A stretch of 37,939 nucleotides of DNA from an uncultured Eubacteriales bacterium (GTDB taxonomy: Bacteria; Bacillota; Clostridia; Peptostreptococcales; Anaerovoracaceae), in NCBI GenBank assembly GCA_902795265.1, contig CADBKM010000012.1, positions 1 to 37,939 on the forward strand, in the 5' to 3' direction. The translations under genes and the position numbers were made by a program. The notes beneath the pieces were generated by a model. It saw nothing but the letters and a program-made list of their open reading frames with translations. It ran no database searches and was not told the origin of the DNA. This document shows, piece after piece, positions 1,885 through 8,600 of the stretch (position 1 is the first letter of the stretch; every line of letters starts with the position of its first letter).

Positions 1885-2773
1885 AGTTTTCTCCCTTCCC
1901 TGTCAGTTCGCTGACAGCCGCGGCGCCGAGTATCATAACTGCTCCGGCGACGGTGTATACTGTGACAGGCTCCTTCAGGAAGAAAGCAGACAGCAGCACC
2001 GCTTCGACCGGATCTATGTAACTCAGGATGCCGACCGTCTGTGTCGGCAGTTTATTGACAGCATCAAAGTAGATAATATAGCCTATGCCGGTGTGCAGAA
2101 GGCCGAGTATCAGCAGGCAGATGATGCCTGTCTGAGTTATTCTTGCCTCTCCGAAAGCCCCTGTCAGAGCCGAGTACGGCAGCATCATGACCGACACCAG
2201 TGCCAGCTGCATCATCGTGGTGTTGACAGGAGATATATCCTTCATGTACTTATTGATGATCACCACCATGGCATAGAAGAATCCGCCTGCCACGCCGAAA
2301 AGAACGCCCTTAAGTTCAGAGAGGTGAAGACCTGTCTGAAGCACGCCCGATACAAGTATCATTCCGCAGAAAGCGATCAGTACGCATATCACCTTCTTCG
2401 GTGTCAGTTTCTCTTTCAGGATCACAGCTCCGGCCAGTATGTAAAAGATCGGTTCCATGTAATAGCACAGCGTGCTCGTCGCTATAGTCGTATACTTGAA
2501 CGCCTCAAACTGGCAGATCCAGTTTACGCACATGAAAGCCGAACTCAGCAGCAGCCACCACTTATTTCTCCAGATAGCCTCCGCATCAGGCTTCTCCTTG
2601 CGCAGAGCGAGGAGGAGCATTATCATCAGCACTCCGAAGAATGCCCTGCCGAGGCATATGAGACTTGACGGCATGTTTATGTATCTCGAAAGCGTTCCTA
2701 TCGTGCCGAACAGCAGCATCGTGAATATGAGCTGAATTCTGGCGGTATTGTTTTTCCCCTGTCCCTTTTCCAT
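1871..2773 (-). CDS. EamA-family drug/metabolite transporter (DMT superfamily)
   Basis: A 300-residue inner-membrane protein with about ten hydrophobic helices arranged as two EamA repeats of five. The repeats start near residues 12 and 155. The second repeat keeps the family-like ending SYIDPVEAVLLSAFFLKEP. Such proteins usually export amino acids or small metabolites, and the substrate cannot be read from sequence. The gene begins 7 nt after the Met-sulfoxide reductase fusion and overlaps DUF2804. Only a weak AGAGAA Shine-Dalgarno is seen about 13 nt upstream, so translation may be coupled to the preceding gene. Confidence 0.9.
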   Translation of the reverse strand: MEKGQGKNNTARIQLIFTMLLFGTIGTLSRYINMPSSLICLGRAFFGVLMIMLLLALRKEKPDAEAIWRNKWWLLLSSAFMCVNWICQFEAFKYTTIATSTLCYYMEPIFYILAGAVILKEKLTPKKVICVLIAFCGMILVSGVLQTGLHLSELKGVLFGVAGGFFYAMVVIINKYMKDISPVNTTMMQLALVSVMMLPYSALTGAFGEARITQTGIICLLILGLLHTGIGYIIYFDAVNKLPTQTVGILSYIDPVEAVLLSAFFLKEPVTVYTVAGAVMILGAAAVSELTGKGENYEKS

Positions 2774-2780
2774 GTATTTG

Positions 2781-3740
2781 TTATTTCTCTTTAAGATTCA
2801 GTAAAGCTCGAGGTATATGGCAGTATCCTCCCGGGTTTTTGTCGAGGTATTTCTGATGATATTCTTCTGCCCTGAAAAAGTTTTCGAGCGGCTTCAGTTC
2901 AACAGCCAGTGGCACTCCGATCATTTTTTCCTTCTCTTCGTAGACTTTTCTGATCGCAGGCAGCATGTCCGGATCCGTATAGTAAATGCCGGTGCGGTAC
3001 TGTATGCCGCTGTCGTGGCCCTGGCGGTTCACCGCTACCGGGTCTATCACCATAAAATAGTTATCCAGTATTTTTTCGAGGCTGATCCGCTCTTCGTCAT
3101 ATTCAATCAGGACGGTCTCGGCGTGACCGCTGCTCGCGCACACATCCTCGTATGACGGCGCGGAGTCAGGTCCGTTCGCGTAACCTACTTCAGTCCTGAT
3201 CACTCCGTCAAACTGATCGAAGAATTTCTGCGTTCCCCAGAAGCATCCTCCTGCAAGATATATCGTCTTCATTTCTGAACCTCCCTGCAGCTTTTTTATA
3301 ACTTCTTCAAGCACAGCCACGGCAGCTTCAAGCCCCGCTCTGTCATCTTCGGTAAATCTCGCTATAAGCGGGCTGTCTATATCGAGCACCCCGTATACCG
3401 AGCCGCCCGCATGTATCGGTATGACGATTTCGGAATTGCTGGCAGAGTCACAGGCTATGTGTCCCGGAAACTCATGTACATTTTTCACGAGCTGAGTGCG
3501 GTCTTCCGCCACAGCCGTTCCGCAGACCCCTTTGCCGGTTTCTATTACCGTACATGCAGTTTTTCCCTGGAACGGTCCAAGAAGGAGCTTCCCGTCTTTC
3601 ATCAGGTAGAAGCCTGCCCAGTTTATATCATCGAGAGATTCCCAGATGAGCGCTGCCGCGTTTGAAAGCACGGTGATGTCCCAAGTCACTCCTTCAGACA
3701 GGCTCTCAAGCTGTCTGCGCATAAGATCGTAATCAGTCAT
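2781..3740 (-). CDS. msrA: Fusion of free-methionine-(R)-sulfoxide reductase (GAF) and peptide-methionine-(S)-sulfoxide reductase MsrA
   Basis: Residues 1-150 form a GAF domain of the fRMsr (YebR/MsrC) type, which reduces free Met-R-sulfoxide. The hallmarks are NWAGFYL (40-46), LGPFQGK (54-60) and the three family cysteines C63, C73 and C97 (in FPGHIACD). From residue 157 the protein is MsrA, which reduces Met-S-sulfoxide. Its catalytic C166 is in GGCFWG and its likely resolving cysteine is in NPGGYCHI near the C-terminus. The two enzymes are usually separate proteins. Here they share one frame, joined by LQGGSE. The full-length start has AAGGG 7 nt upstream. A second, stronger ribosome-binding site precedes Met157. 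It heads an operon with an EamA exporter, DUF2804 and a sirtuin. Confidence 0.93.
   Translation of the reverse strand: MTDYDLMRRQLESLSEGVTWDITVLSNAAALIWESLDDINWAGFYLMKDGKLLLGPFQGKTACTVIETGKGVCGTAVAEDRTQLVKNVHEFPGHIACDSASNSEIVIPIHAGGSVYGVLDIDSPLIARFTEDDRAGLEAAVAVLEEVIKKLQGGSEMKTIYLAGGCFWGTQKFFDQFDGVIRTEVGYANGPDSAPSYEDVCASSGHAETVLIEYDEERISLEKILDNYFMVIDPVAVNRQGHDSGIQYRTGIYYTDPDMLPAIRKVYEEKEKMIGVPLAVELKPLENFFRAEEYHQKYLDKNPGGYCHIPRALLNLKEK
3270..3286 (-). promoter_or_regulatory. Internal ribosome-binding site and start codon for MsrA alone
   Basis: On the minus strand AGGGAG (3286-3281) is followed by 8 nt and ATG (3272-3270), which is Met157 of the fusion. The Shine-Dalgarno bases themselves encode the linker residues Gly-Gly. 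This layout is that of an ordinary second cistron whose upstream stop codon has been lost, so separate MsrA may be made in addition to the fusion. Confidence 0.75.
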
Positions 3741-3778
3741 AGCATAACCCTTTCATCAATTATTATTGCCTTACGGTT

Positions 3779-3784
3779 ATTCTA
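3779..3784 (-). promoter_or_regulatory. Candidate extended -10 promoter for the msr-eamA-DUF2804-cobB operon
   Basis: The minus strand reads TGATAGAAT, an extended -10 (TGn-TAGAAT), about 38 nt upstream of the fusion start. No good -35 is present, as expected for extended -10 promoters. A hairpin pairing AACGGC with GCCGTT lies just upstream but lacks a T-tract. Confidence 0.4.
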
Positions 3785-3844
3785 TCATAAGGAACGGCCG
3801 CCTTTCGACAGCCGTTTCCCTTTAAGTATCGTGTGTTTATGATT

Positions 3845-5293
3845 TTACTGATCTTCACCGAAGTCAGCCTTGAAAGCAGCGACCAGCTTTTCAGGCCAGT
3901 CTGAAGTTGGTTCGAGTCTGCCTGTGAAGAATCTCAGGGTAGCAGGCTCGTGGACGAATCTGAGTCCGCCTATCATGTCTCTGTGATCGAATACCCACTT
4001 GACTCTGTCGATAACGTATTCTACCTGCGAGAGTGTGAACACGCGCCTTGGCAGCGCCAGTCTAACAAGTTCCATTGAAGCGAATCTTTCACTTCCGTCC
4101 GCTTCTCTTTCTTCGGAAAGCGTTCCGCGCTCCATTCCGCGGATGCCGCCGCAGAGGTAAAATGCGCAGGTGAGCGCCCCTGCCGGGTATTCATCCTGAG
4201 GAATATGTGAAACAAAGTCCATCGCGTCTACATGAGCTCCGAGGCCTCCGGCAGGAGTTATCATCGGAACGCCGTAATCTGCCAGCTTGTCCACACAGTA
4301 TTTGATAAACTGCGGTCCCTGCGAAATGACATCCATATCCATCGACTCGTCAAAGCCTACAGTCATGGCTTCGATCTCACGGACCGACATGCCGCCGTAT
4401 GTAAGGAAGCCCTCAAACATCGGTATGAGATCCTCCATCGAGTGGAATAGCTCCTCGTCTCTGACCATGATAGCTCCGCCTCTGGCGAATCCGAACTTTC
4501 TGCCCGAGAAGTAGATGATATCAAACTGATCGGCGATCTCCATGGTTATCTCGCGTACGGATTTATCCTTGCGCTCTTCATCGCGGGTCTTGATGAAGTA
4601 GAGATTGTCCTGCAGAAGCGAAGCGTCGAGCACGGACAGGATACCGTGCTTTCTTGCGACAGCGCAGGCATCCTTAAAGCTCTGAACGGAGACCGGCTGT
4701 CCGCCGATGAGGTTTGTACCCGCCTCGAGTCTCATGAAAGCTACGTTCTCTGCGCCCTCCTTCTCAATGCAGGCCTCCAGCTTATCGATGTCGATATCGC
4801 CTTTGAACGGCAGATCGCTATGTGATACAAGGCCCTCATCTTTTACGAGCTCTTCGACATGGCCGCCGAGCCTGGTTATGTGTGCCTTTGCTGTCGTGAA
4901 GTGATAATTCATGATCACGCACATTCCCGGCTTTACGAATCTTGTCGCAAGGATATTCTCGCAGGCTCTGCCCTGGTGTGCAGGCAGGCAGTACTTCATA
5001 CCGAGGATCTCCTCAAGCTTATCTCTCATGCGGTAGAAAGATTCGCTCCCTGCATAAGCATCGTCCGGTGTCATCATTCCGGCGAGCATCTTATCGCTCA
5101 TTGCGTTTACTCCGGAATCGGTGAGCATGTCCATGAAGATGTCTCCGTTGTGAAGCTGGAATGTGTTGAATCCGGCCTCCTCCATTTTTTCAAGTCTCTG
5201 ATCGGCCGGGAGCAGCTGAAGCTGCTGTACGATCTTGACTTTATGCATCTCCATAGGAATAGGTTCGTGATCATAGAATTTGATAGCGGGCAT
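3845..5293 (-). CDS. tpl: Tyrosine phenol-lyase-like PLP-dependent beta-eliminating lyase
   Basis: Tyrosine phenol-lyase (TPL) and tryptophanase split Tyr or Trp into phenol or indole, pyruvate and ammonia, and the reaction is reversible. The 482-residue length is typical. PLP ligands are visible: Lys266 in SGRKFG, Asp223 43 residues before it as in TPL, Tyr80, QGR at 107-109, Asn194 and substrate-carboxylate Arg411. The residues that separate TPL from tryptophanase all match TPL: Thr133 (TPL Thr124, Asp in tryptophanase), Arg389 in MERG (TPL Arg381, Ile in tryptophanase) and Phe455 in LRFF (TPL Phe448, His in tryptophanase). It is divergent in other ways. Leu226 stands where TPL has Arg217, and the lysine segment KFGFARGG differs from the classical KKDCLVNIGG. 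Strong AGGAGG before the ATG. The leader upstream encodes a poly-Tyr peptide and a terminator, which supports a tyrosine link. Alternative: tryptophanase or a related lyase of this subgroup. Confidence 0.82.
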   Translation of the reverse strand: MPAIKFYDHEPIPMEMHKVKIVQQLQLLPADQRLEKMEEAGFNTFQLHNGDIFMDMLTDSGVNAMSDKMLAGMMTPDDAYAGSESFYRMRDKLEEILGMKYCLPAHQGRACENILATRFVKPGMCVIMNYHFTTAKAHITRLGGHVEELVKDEGLVSHSDLPFKGDIDIDKLEACIEKEGAENVAFMRLEAGTNLIGGQPVSVQSFKDACAVARKHGILSVLDASLLQDNLYFIKTRDEERKDKSVREITMEIADQFDIIYFSGRKFGFARGGAIMVRDEELFHSMEDLIPMFEGFLTYGGMSVREIEAMTVGFDESMDMDVISQGPQFIKYCVDKLADYGVPMITPAGGLGAHVDAMDFVSHIPQDEYPAGALTCAFYLCGGIRGMERGTLSEEREADGSERFASMELVRLALPRRVFTLSQVEYVIDRVKWVFDHRDMIGGLRFVHEPATLRFFTGRLEPTSDWPEKLVAAFKADFGEDQ

Positions 5294-5322
5294 AGCAGTT
5301 TACCTCCTGAATTTTCATAGTC

Positions 5323-5362
5323 CCAAAACAAAACGCTCCGCAGCTGTCTGCCGCAGAGCGTT
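5323..5362 (-). terminator. Intrinsic terminator (attenuator) in the tpl leader
   Basis: A 31-nt hairpin (5362-5332, minus strand) has a 13-bp stem, formed by AACGCT/AGCGTT plus CTGCGGC/GCTGCGG with two wobbles, and an AGACA loop. It is followed directly by TTTTGTTTT (5331-5323). It lies about 30 nt before the tpl start and downstream of the leader peptide, exactly where an attenuator should be. Its 3' half contains the partner of the antiterminator segment 5417-5426. Confidence 0.9.
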
Positions 5363-5426
5363 GTTATCGAAATGAAGTATGTTACAAGTCTTCAGAGCGA
5401 TCAGATACTCACAGCAAAACAGCTAC
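5340..5426 (-). promoter_or_regulatory. Predicted antiterminator pairing in the tpl leader
   Basis: On the minus strand GTAGCTGTTT (5426-5417), inside the end of the leader ORF, can pair over ten consecutive positions (two wobbles) with AGACAGCTGC (5349-5340). The latter forms the loop and 3' stem of the terminator, so the two structures exclude each other. The upstream segment is alternatively locked in a leader hairpin. That hairpin uses TACCTC/GGGGTA with a GAC loop, CACAGCA/TGCTGTG (5463-5457 with 5416-5410), and CTTCAGA/TCTGAAG (5472-5466 with 5396-5390). This gives the 1:2, 2:3, 3:4 arrangement of classical attenuators. Confidence 0.72.
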
Positions 5427-5483
5427 CCCGTCGAGGTAGTAATAGTAATAATATTCTGCTGTGTTTCTGAAGTTCTTTTTCAT
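5409..5483 (-). CDS. Poly-tyrosine leader peptide of the tpl attenuator (24 aa)
   Basis: A short ORF starts at ATG 5483 and ends with TGA at 5411-5409. It begins MKKNFRNTAE, continues with six consecutive tyrosines (residues 11-16, codons at 5453-5436, both TAT and TAC used) and ends LDGVAVLL. Six Tyr in 24 residues directly in front of a TPL-like gene and an intrinsic terminator is the layout of amino-acid leader peptides such as PheL or HisL. The Shine-Dalgarno is poor: AGGTG lies about 20 nt before the ATG. Hairpin segments and the antiterminator strand lie within or just past this ORF, so ribosome position on the Tyr codons would decide the RNA fold. Confidence 0.85.
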   Translation of the reverse strand: MKKNFRNTAEYYYYYYLDGVAVLL

Positions 5484-5525
5484 TTGTCTGAATCGATTGT
5501 TAACACCTAAAAATAAGATAGCGCT

Positions 5526-5554
5526 ATGGTACAATACCCGTTTGTTCTTTTCAA
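5526..5554 (-). promoter_or_regulatory. Sigma-A-type promoter of the tpl leader transcript
   Basis: On the minus strand TTGAAA (5554-5549), a 17-bp spacer and TACCAT (5531-5526) form a reasonable housekeeping promoter. Transcription would start near 5519, giving about 225 nt of leader before the tpl ATG. It lies in the gap after addA, so tpl does not need read-through from addA. Confidence 0.6.
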
Positions 5555-5616
5555 CAATAAATTGCATTGTTTTTATTTAAAATCACAAAAAGTGCAACTA
5601 TGCATCCTTATCACTG

Positions 5617-8600
5617 CTATTTCATATCTATAGCTTCACCCGTAGCGATCAGATAGAGATACGCCTCAGACACCTCTTTACCGCAGCCTTTTTCAACAGC
5701 TTCGCTGTAAAGTTCTATCTGCACCTTGTACTCATCTCTGATGCGCGCAAGCTCAGCCTCGTGCTGCCTCCCCGGCTTCACAAAATTCGATTTATAGTCT
5801 ATAAGGATCATTCGGCCGTCTTCCTCGAAGCAGCAGTCGATGACACCCTGTACCAGCATATCCCGGCCGTTTCTGTTCGTCTTCAGGGTGAAGGCTTTTT
5901 CGCGCATCAGAGTTCCGCGCGCTTCTGCCTCAACCGCCCTGCGTCCGAGCGGGCCTTCAAAGAATGCGGCGATCCTTTCAATATCGAGAGCCGCATATAC
6001 ATCTTCATCTATTGCATTGTGGTCTTTGAGGAAAACCGCACGCTCCGTAATATACTGCCTGTCCGTTTTCCCTGAGCAGTCGGTCACTTTCGAGAAGTCG
6101 AGGAACTCCATTATGCGGTGGTAAGCTATGCCTATATCAGCCGACGAGGCGCGCTTCTTCTGCTCCACGGCAGTCCTGAGATGCACCACTTCGTCATCAC
6201 TGATCACGGCAGCCTCGCGTTTTACAGCTGCGTCCCTTTCAAGTTCTTCTTTGCGGATCGCGCTTACAGAATACTTTGCCTTTGCGATCAGAAGCTCTTC
6301 ATCCGGATATCTGTATCTGAATCTTCTGTCCAGTTCTTCATATATCGCCTGCTCATCTGCGTTGAGAGGTCTGTCGAAGTAAGCGCTGATCGTGTTCTGT
6401 GAGGCCTCTTCATTAAGGCTTTTGGACAGGACCAGATCGCTTGCGTAATATCTGTTTGACCCGCTCCTCAGAACATCCTTCATGGCCATTATGTAGTTCG
6501 AAGGCCTCACCTGATATTTCGCCAGTTCCGCCTCGCTTTTACAGCAGCCAACCATGTAGAGCTTATTGCGGGCTCTTGTCATTGCAACGTAAAGAAGCCT
6601 TAATTCCTCTCTGTACTCATCGCGTCTGGCCTTCGAATTCATTGCCCGCTGAAGCACAGTCGATCTCCAGTACCGGCGCGAAGGATCCACATAAGGAAGT
6701 CCTACACCGGCTTCGGAATCGAAACTGAATCCCTTTTTGTTCGTATCATATCTAAATCTGTGCCCGAGTCCTCCCACTATGACAAACGGATACTCAAGGC
6801 CCTTGCTTTTATGTATCGTGGATATGCGCACAACGTCATCATCACGCCCCACCATGGAAGCCTGCCCGTTGCTGAGCTTTTTGCTCTTCAGCACTTCAAG
6901 GAAGGATATGAACGAGCTGAGCGTAGCTATTGAATCCTTGCTGAATCTCGCTGCCCTGTCGGTAAGCGTTCTGAGATTGGCCTGCCTCATCGAGCCGCCG
7001 GGCATGGCTCCTGCCATTCTGTAATAACCCGACTCCGTAAGGACCTTCCATACAAAGTCTTCCAGCGGAAGTATGCGCGAGAGCCTTCTCCATTCGAGCA
7101 GCGATGCTCTGGCCGATTCAGCTTTATCTCTGAGATCACCCGCAGGCCCTTCCGTCGAGTACCACTCGAAGGCTTTCCAGTAAGCCGTCCTGCCTTTTAC
7201 TGCTTTCGAGTACTCTATTCTTACACGCGCAAGATCGTCGGGGCTGAATCCGAATATTTCGGAATGCAGTACCGAGATCAGTGGGATATCCCTCTTCATG
7301 TTGTCGATACACATCAGCAGCGACAGCGCTACGCCTATCTCGACCGTATCAAAGTAGTCCTCGGTCTCCTCAACATGGGCTTCGACAGCCTGCTCTCTGA
7401 GAGCCCGGCTCATCACTTCACCCCTGCGTCTGACGGCCCTGAACAGTATCGCTATGTCTTTGGCGCCCGCCTTTCTTACCTGTTCGGTTTTCGTGTCATA
7501 AAACTCGGTCCCTATGATCGATTTAACTATGCGGGCGATATACGCGGCTTCAGCTTCTTCTTTGCTGATCTCTTCGATCTCTTCATCAGCCTCATCTATA
7601 TCATCTTCAGGTTCAAGCTCTTCATCGTCCGTTTTGCCGAAAAGCAGGTGGACTTCGGGCATGAAGTCGTATTCAGCAGGGCATTTGGTACCCGTGTACA
7701 GCATGGCACGCTCATCGTAGCCTTCCATGATTTGCCCGAATACATGGTTGACGTATCTTATGGTCGCATCATTCGTTCTGAAGTTGCGTCCCAGATCAAT
7801 TGCCACGCCCGATGGATCGCCGCCTTGTGTATACTTCGCATAAAGCCTTTCGAAAATCTCAGGCTCTGCCTGTCTGAACTTGTAAATGCTCTGCTTTACA
7901 TCGCCTACCCTGAATACGTTGTCGGCCCTGGCCACACGGCTAATGAGATCTTCCTGTATGTTGTTCGTATCCTGGTATTCATCTACAAAGATGAACCTGA
8001 ATCTCCTTCGAAGGGTCTCCGCCGCTTCGTCATTTTTCAGTATGCGGACAGCTATATGCTCCATATCCGCAAAGTCGATCACTCTTTTTTCGCGCTTTTT
8101 CGCGTCGTACCTTCTTTCAAACTCTTCGAGCAGCCGCAGATAATAGATCATATAGTCATATGTGCTGTTCATCTCCGCAAGCCGCGAGCCGAGGTCCGGT
8201 ATCAGGTAACGCTTTTTGAAGTCATCGATCTCTTTTTTGAGAGGTTTGCGCAAAGCGTCAACATCAGCTTTGATCCCTTCGTATGCTTCTTTTTGATCCT
8301 TTGTTGCCCTGAGGACAGACGATGGAAATTCTTCTATCGATCTTATGACATCAAAGCTCAGGCCCTCGCTTTCGAGAGCTTCGCTTATATCCGCCGCCGC
8401 GTCTGCCTGTGCCGCCAGCTTAGACTCGAACATTTCGGGAATACCGGCATCATCAAAAAGCGCTCTTATCTTTCTGAAAGCCAGGCCGGTGCCCGTAAAT
8501 ACCTCTTTTGCGTCATCAGCCATAAGCTTCTGAAAATCAGAACCTTCAAATGTATCTTCGCTTACTTTCAGATTTTCCGCTTTTGCATACGCCCATTCGA

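Follow-up and report, generated by a model that had tools for sequence, protein, structure and literature searches.

A poly-tyrosine leader and candidate attenuator in front of a tyrosine phenol-lyase-like gene in gut Clostridia

The locus and its leader RNA

The window, that is, the whole stretch of DNA analysed here (37,939 nucleotides, contig CADBKM010000012.1), comes from a 1.95-Mb draft genome, 86% complete, of an uncultured bacterium in the Clostridia family Anaerovoracaceae. Its minus strand carries a gene for a β-eliminating lyase of the superfamily that includes tyrosine phenol-lyase (TPL) and tryptophanase (Table 1). The lyase ORF has a good ribosome-binding site, AGGAGG, and is preceded by a leader region that holds a short ORF with a run of tyrosine codons and several RNA arms with alternative partners. 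Among the records of the same genus are Mogibacterium sp., sampled from the gut of goats and sheep, as well as Clostridiales, many of them from the RUG series, which we take to be a rumen series. Downstream of the lyase, at 2781-3740, lies a single ORF encoding a GAF domain followed by an MsrA (methionine sulfoxide reductase) domain.

Table 1. Features of the lyase locus and its leader in the window.
Feature	Coordinates	Strand	Basis
Promoter-like site, TTGAAA-17 nt-TACCAT	5526..5554	-	9/12 matches; same spacing and place in 9/23 leaders
Predicted leader ORF, 24 codons plus stop, MKKNFRNTAEYYYYYYLDGVAVLL	5409..5483	-	ORF read; recurs in the genus
Six Tyr codons in a row, putative sensor	5436..5453	-	5-8 Tyr codons in 22/24 genus loci
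Protector arm 1, overlapping the first Tyr codon	5452..5463	-	MFE fold; 94.1% of cells paired
Arm 2, partner of arm 1 (protector) or arm 3 (antiterminator)	5410..5426	-	MFE fold and alignment
Antiterminator arm 3, overlapping the terminator's loop and both its arms	5340..5355	-	97.6% paired; covariation
Intrinsic terminator, 13-bp stem 5362-5332, 5-nt loop, T-rich tract	5323..5362	-	Fold and covariation
482-aa β-eliminating lyase (TPL/tryptophanase superfamily, separate subfamily), proposed to be tyrosine-forming	3845..5293	-	PF01212, PRK13238, predicted fold

The original prediction, made from the sequence of the window, placed a promoter at 5554-5526. A site is present there, but a scan of 3000-7500 found six such sites against 4.1 expected from shuffles, and taken alone it is weak. 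A TTGNNN-17-TANCAT match located 41-42 nt before the leader start scores highest in nine of 23 lyase leaders, which makes such a site plausible as the leader promoter. There is no convincing Shine-Dalgarno sequence ahead of the leader ATG in the window.

Folding of the minus-strand leader RNA gave a z-score of -4.46, with none of 200 shuffles as good, and found the mutually exclusive structures that had been predicted. The terminator hairpin with its T-tract is there as described. The antiterminator is real, but the 10 bp originally assigned to it (5426-5417 with 5349-5340) are too few: the helix comprises 16 pairs, between 5426-5410 and 5355-5340. A further element, absent from that first description, appears in the MFE fold as a protector helix between arms 1 and 2 (about 5463-5452 with 5421-5410).

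Covariation was assessed in an alignment (A1) of 21 leaders, from which L020 and L028 were left out. In the terminator, 97.1% of the cells are paired and seven of ten pairs show double changes, a result equalled by none of 500 shuffles. In the antiterminator, 97.6% of the cells are paired and both sides have changed in four of the 16 pairs; these double changes were matched by two of 500 shuffles and the score by none. The protector helix is paired in 94.1% of the cells and varies too little for a covariation test, no significant covariation being seen.

The block at arm 2, with the sequence GCTGTTTTGCTGT or one close to it, stands in frame 0, 1 or 2 relative to the tyrosine run in 15, four and two of the 21 leaders, and in the two frame-2 cases it is located past the leader stop. 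Since the block is kept whatever its frame, arm 2 is conserved as RNA and not as peptide. The only peptide parts common to the leaders are the tyrosine run and a few residues before it.

A known Rfam element or T-box at the leader was considered and rejected, as a scan of the window gave no match at gathering score. STnc310 (22.2 of 40 bits) and Thr_leader (14 of 55 bits) fell far below theirs, and the T-box model RF00230 gave nothing in 5250-5650 at E-values up to 10.

Conservation and simulated stalling

The genus sample consists of 47 genomes, 26 of which have the lyase at 84% identity or more, counting one fragment at a contig edge (G038) and one frameshifted copy (G019). Among the genus's lyase loci, 24 have 170 nt or more of upstream DNA, and a leader with five to eight tyrosine codons is present in 22 of them. 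In one of the two exceptions, L015, a group II intron domain (3023-3088, 44.9 bits) stands immediately before the lyase and cuts the gene off from any leader. The other, L016, is interrupted by a contig break, and the same genome has a poly-Tyr leader and terminator at the end of another contig. A five-Tyr-codon run by itself is not rare, and the window's own genome also has two matches to the reversed pattern used as a control. It is because the whole arrangement recurs in 22 of 24 loci, not because of the tyrosine run alone, that the leader is not attributable to chance. The observation of a leader, terminator, antiterminator and lyase in this order is thus confirmed.

Two degraded copies of the gene were seen in the genus. 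L028 (G025:C14) is a lyase remnant with stops in which the poly-Tyr leader is still present; aroC and tyrA are both retained in its genome. In L025/L107 (G019:C13), a frameshift near residue 432 splits the lyase.

Ribosome stalling was simulated in 23 leaders by placing a ribosome at one of three positions on the first tyrosine codons. A terminator hairpin of at least 9 bp is part of the MFE fold in all 23, both in RNA free of ribosomes and when the stop codon is occupied by one, with a mean pair probability of 0.58-1.00 and 0.62-1.00, respectively. At one or more of the three tyrosine stalls, the terminator probability falls below 0.5 in 22 of the 23 leaders, and at the second stall alone this happens in 20 of 23, compared with nine of 920 copies in which the intervening segment was shuffled. 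The exception is L020, which never switches (0.98 or more). The window's own leader switches marginally at equilibrium, with terminator probabilities of 0.72, 0.61 and 0.42 at the three stalls, which is only near even. In 22 of 23 leaders, then, the simulated stall tips the balance away from the terminator and towards the antiterminator that excludes it.

The competition was also followed in truncated RNA, cut before the 3' arm of the terminator, by measuring upstream pairing of the apical 5' arm. For the window, this arm is paired upstream with a probability of 0.30 in the free RNA, 0.89 with a stalled ribosome and 0.24 when the ribosome has reached the stop. In all 23 lyase leaders, stalling gives more upstream pairing than a ribosome at the stop does. 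Upstream pairing is already 0.70 or more in the free state in nine of them, and in L020 and L025 stalling brings no increase over the free RNA.

Proposed tyrosine-linked control of related genes

Poly-Tyr leaders are not confined to the lyase. A search for a pattern of five tyrosine codons covered the genus and 296 family genomes, and 30 loci (L169-L198) were scanned among the family matches listed. Such a leader stands before a prephenate dehydrogenase gene in G003 (L159) and, among the matches listed, in G176 (L171), before a gene for a TrpX-like substrate-binding protein in G002 (L146) and before DAHP synthase genes in at least seven genomes of one other genus (L174, L175, L181-L185). All three DAHP synthases tested exceed the curated NCBIfam cut-off. 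The best NCBIfam family is prephenate dehydrogenase for L171 and L159 and TrpX for L146, all three below the equivalog cut-offs. In L159 (G003:C7), at about 2186-3025, there is an in-frame TGA near the start of the prephenate dehydrogenase, indicating either a pseudogene or an assembly error.

All ten non-lyase leaders have a terminator downstream. Their layout is right for an attenuator; at equilibrium, a switch was seen in none of the ten, the terminator staying at 0.84 or more when the ribosome was stalled. In truncated RNA, upstream pairing is higher stalled than free in all ten, by little in L171 and L182, and for L146 the stop and stalled values are equal. Among the matches listed there were also HRPYYYYY-like runs just upstream of a dnaN-like gene in several genomes of the family (L169, L178, L179, L187, L193-L195, L198); these were judged by eye and rejected as leaders.

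T-boxes switch on when their tRNA is uncharged. Upstream of the lyase in 40 homologue loci, six T-boxes scored above the Rfam threshold (L033, L034, L048, L049, L051 and L084), another in L100 reached 86.1, below the threshold of 93, and one in L097 was detected by the T-box motif only. The specifier is UAC in all eight when aligned by hand, and on this basis they are read as tyrosine-specific, less surely for L084, L097 and L100 because a one-base shift there would read UUA. The window's own genome has three T-box matches, all below the gathering score and none at the lyase. One distant homologue, L094, has a four-Tyr leader of its own that switches in the same stall test. On an enzyme tree made by a quick method, the branches that split off first within the clade are among the T-box rows, whereas rows with a poly-Tyr leader consist of one genus clade and L094.

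A third mode of control may be represented by a divergent LysR-type gene, which by eye adjoins the lyase in about 32 of 57 named loci outside the genus (L116, L138, L141 and about 29 others), most of which belong to a single large subclade from the gut. A narrow motif searched by script flagged 19, and the two tested were both LysR-type. Another signal could operate there. The first 40 residues of downstream ORFs, read by eye at 80 named loci, at many of which no ORF of 100 residues was found, gave no recurring tyrosine-related partner. In L091, the gene after the lyase resembles a tryptophanyl-tRNA synthetase by its first residues.

For the shikimate pathway, chorismate synthase was found within the genus in six of 26 lyase genomes compared with 16 of the 21 without a full lyase (Fisher p = 0.0004, kinship ignored), although in draft genomes absence can be a gap. 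The difference persists in genomes at least 90% complete (2/10 versus 7/9, p = 0.023, kinship again ignored). The gene is also absent from five of the 21 genomes that lack a full lyase. Prephenate dehydrogenase (at least 60 bits) shows no significant association (5/26 lyase genomes versus 8/21, p = 0.20). Outside the genus, 53 of 59 lyase genomes have chorismate synthase, as do five of the nine with T-box or poly-Tyr control, and the idea that the lyase replaces the shikimate pathway everywhere was rejected for this reason.

Two of the six positive lyase genomes, the window's own (G000) and G026, have their only aroC on near-identical contigs. The 24.8-kb contig of the former, G000:C31, with L156, L211, tyrA and aroC, matches contigs from two other species at 98.6-100% identity: G026:C51 along its whole length and G039:C27 across the 11.2 kb that were compared. 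These aroC copies, and contig C31 itself, are probably foreign, because the lyase DNA of the same three genomes is only 79-80% identical; binning contamination is the likely cause, or else a very recent transfer. To count the window's own genome as shikimate-positive is therefore doubtful.

The lyase and its proposed role

The lyase matches PF01212 with 155.6 bits and the broad tryptophanase/TPL subfamily PRK13238 with 564 bits, above the cut-off. Against the TPL equivalog, TIGR02618 (EC 4.1.99.2), it scores 438 bits, below the cut-off of 720.7; five other members of the subfamily score 418-446, and the outgroup proteins L053, L054 and L055 pass. The predicted structure (pLDDT 75.9, pTM 0.80, several loops weak) is closest in fold to solved TPLs by Foldseek, at about 40% identity and an E-value of 6e-40. 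In the tree, the subfamily forms a fully supported clade on a long stem, with 2.34 changes per column.

Residues were compared between 88 subfamily rows, many of them closely related, and 11 outgroup rows of TPL and tryptophanase. The PLP lysine, D214, Y71, R100, N185 and R404, presumably the carboxylate arginine, are kept. A phenol site of the TPL type is also present, with T124, M379 and R381 in 88/88 rows and F448 in 87/88 (one gap). T124 and R381 are taken to contact the phenol hydroxyl and F448 to be part of the phenol site. In the outgroup, T124, R381 and F448 separate the five TPL-type from the six tryptophanase-type rows. Five positions invariant in the outgroup are changed throughout the subfamily, as R217L, K256R, N262R, E69D and H343L. 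We assume these to be cofactor-site, K+-site or acid-base positions, with E69 and N262 at the K+ site. The description of the gene as TPL-like, then, holds for the fold and the phenol site, but not for membership of the curated family, from which the protein is set apart by its score, its separate clade and these changes. Such changes could mean another reaction altogether.

In the proposed mechanism, a ribosome translating the leader when tyrosine is ample would pass the tyrosine run, reach the stop codon and cover arm 2, and the terminator would end transcription before the lyase. On untranslated RNA, the 1:2 protector would form and transcription would also terminate. If charged tRNA-Tyr were scarce, the ribosome would stall on the tyrosine codons and leave arm 2 uncovered; arms 2 and 3 would then pair, the terminator would be blocked and the lyase would be made. 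The enzyme would supply tyrosine, most likely by a TPL-type reaction in the synthetic direction, from phenol, with serine, cysteine or pyruvate plus ammonia providing the aminoacrylate.

TPL is a catabolic enzyme whose reverse reaction is used in industry. A lyase induced by scarce charged tRNA-Tyr is therefore a misfit with catabolism, and such induction suggests a tyrosine-forming and not a tyrosine-degrading role. The computations bear out the predicted poly-Tyr attenuator through its architecture, conservation and covariation, the competition between its folds, the leader type shared with the biosynthetic genes tyrA and DAHP synthase in related bacteria and the tyrosine T-boxes of homologues. 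A ribosome-mediated poly-Tyr attenuator is accordingly very likely, and we infer that it works in cells. It is less certain, though still rather probable, that the lyase forms tyrosine and uses phenol. The attenuator and this role are drawn together because two unrelated tRNA-Tyr-sensing RNAs control the subfamily and kin leaders stand on tyrosine-biosynthesis genes; the retained phenol site makes phenol the most likely donor of the ring. For the explanation as a whole, a charged-tRNA-Tyr attenuator that controls a tyrosine-forming lyase, we give a probability of about 0.68.

The five changed residues, the length of the clade's branch and the related fold of the SH thiocysteine lyase domain (9cen) would also fit a lyase with a different substrate, such as a C-S lyase or a β-replacement enzyme with another phenolic or thiol, the product of which is needed when tyrosine is short and which is governed by the attenuator as described. 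With T124, R381, M379 and F448 retained and regulation specific for tyrosine in two unrelated RNA systems, we think this unlikely. The same element might instead sit on a catabolic enzyme of unchanged direction to adjust flux or balance the pool. TPL is described as catabolic and activated by TyrR in Erwinia and Citrobacter (PMC1173090), and tyrS of the Enterococcus durans tyramine cluster is reported to be most transcribed without tyrosine (PMC3315439). The Enterococcus gene encodes a synthetase, however, and not a tyrosine-consuming enzyme, and an enzyme that destroys tyrosine during tyrosine shortage would harm the cell, the more so as most of the genomes have no chorismate synthase. This makes pool balancing very unlikely.

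The leader peptide TnaC senses tryptophan and controls tryptophanase, and the presence of a leader peptide in front of an enzyme of the same superfamily invites comparison with it: the lyase might be a catabolic TPL and the leader might sense abundant tyrosine through its nascent poly-Tyr peptide. The closer likeness to tnaC did not stand up, since the peptide past the tyrosine run is not conserved, as the changing frame of arm 2 attests. The window also differs in its opposite expected logic and its intrinsic terminator, and the leader type is found before tyrA and DAHP synthase in kin and tyrosine T-boxes on homologues. Sensing of the TnaC type was therefore rejected and is the least probable of the readings considered here. 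The preferred reading remains a charged-tRNA-Tyr attenuator on a tyrosine-forming lyase.

With attenuators of the trpL, pheL and hisL type, the window shares a short ORF with the regulated codons and mutually exclusive protector, antiterminator and terminator folds. It differs in having tyrosine codons only, a TPL-like lyase and no classical biosynthetic gene as its target, and a host among the Clostridia. T-boxes are the usual device in Clostridia; they bind tRNA directly, unlike the translated type of leader found here. Tyrosine is among the amino acids under T-box control in a 2005 survey (PMC1262725). In the Bacillus cereus group, a T-box is described on phenylalanine-4-hydroxylase (Phe to Tyr), a precedent for tRNA-dependent control of an enzyme that forms tyrosine without belonging to the shikimate pathway (PMC2494555). 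The Corynebacterium glutamicum AroR leader also precedes a DAHP synthase gene, aroF, and works by ribosome stalling, but it encodes Phe-Tyr-Phe and is reported to answer to phenylalanine and not tyrosine (PMC11802643). The uORFC-13-1 motif of Acholeplasma aroF combines a leader ORF and a terminator on DAHP synthase, with phenylalanine codons and in another gene and lineage (PMC8632094). Switching of one gene between T-boxes and leader peptides, and histidine leaders in bacilli, have also been described (PMC2965389). A literature search that took in few subscription papers, some sources in part, found no poly-Tyr attenuator, no T-box on a TPL-like gene and no account of this lyase subgroup.

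Taken furthest, these observations would point to a natural tyrosine synthase: gut Clostridia, some of which would have lost the shikimate pathway, may rebuild tyrosine from phenol supplied by their neighbours or the diet, using a remodelled TPL under tRNA-Tyr-starvation control through a poly-Tyr attenuator or a tyrosine T-box, depending on the lineage. We hold this broader picture to be roughly an even bet. Leader-peptide attenuators would form a tyrosine regulon in a Clostridia family. If true, the tyrosine synthase would indicate that TPL chemistry has a biosynthetic use in nature and that tyrosine can be reached by a route other than prephenate or the hydroxylation of phenylalanine. Phenol cross-feeding in the gut would be suggested as well, and two unrelated tRNA-sensing RNAs would be seen to serve a single enzyme subfamily in a clean example.
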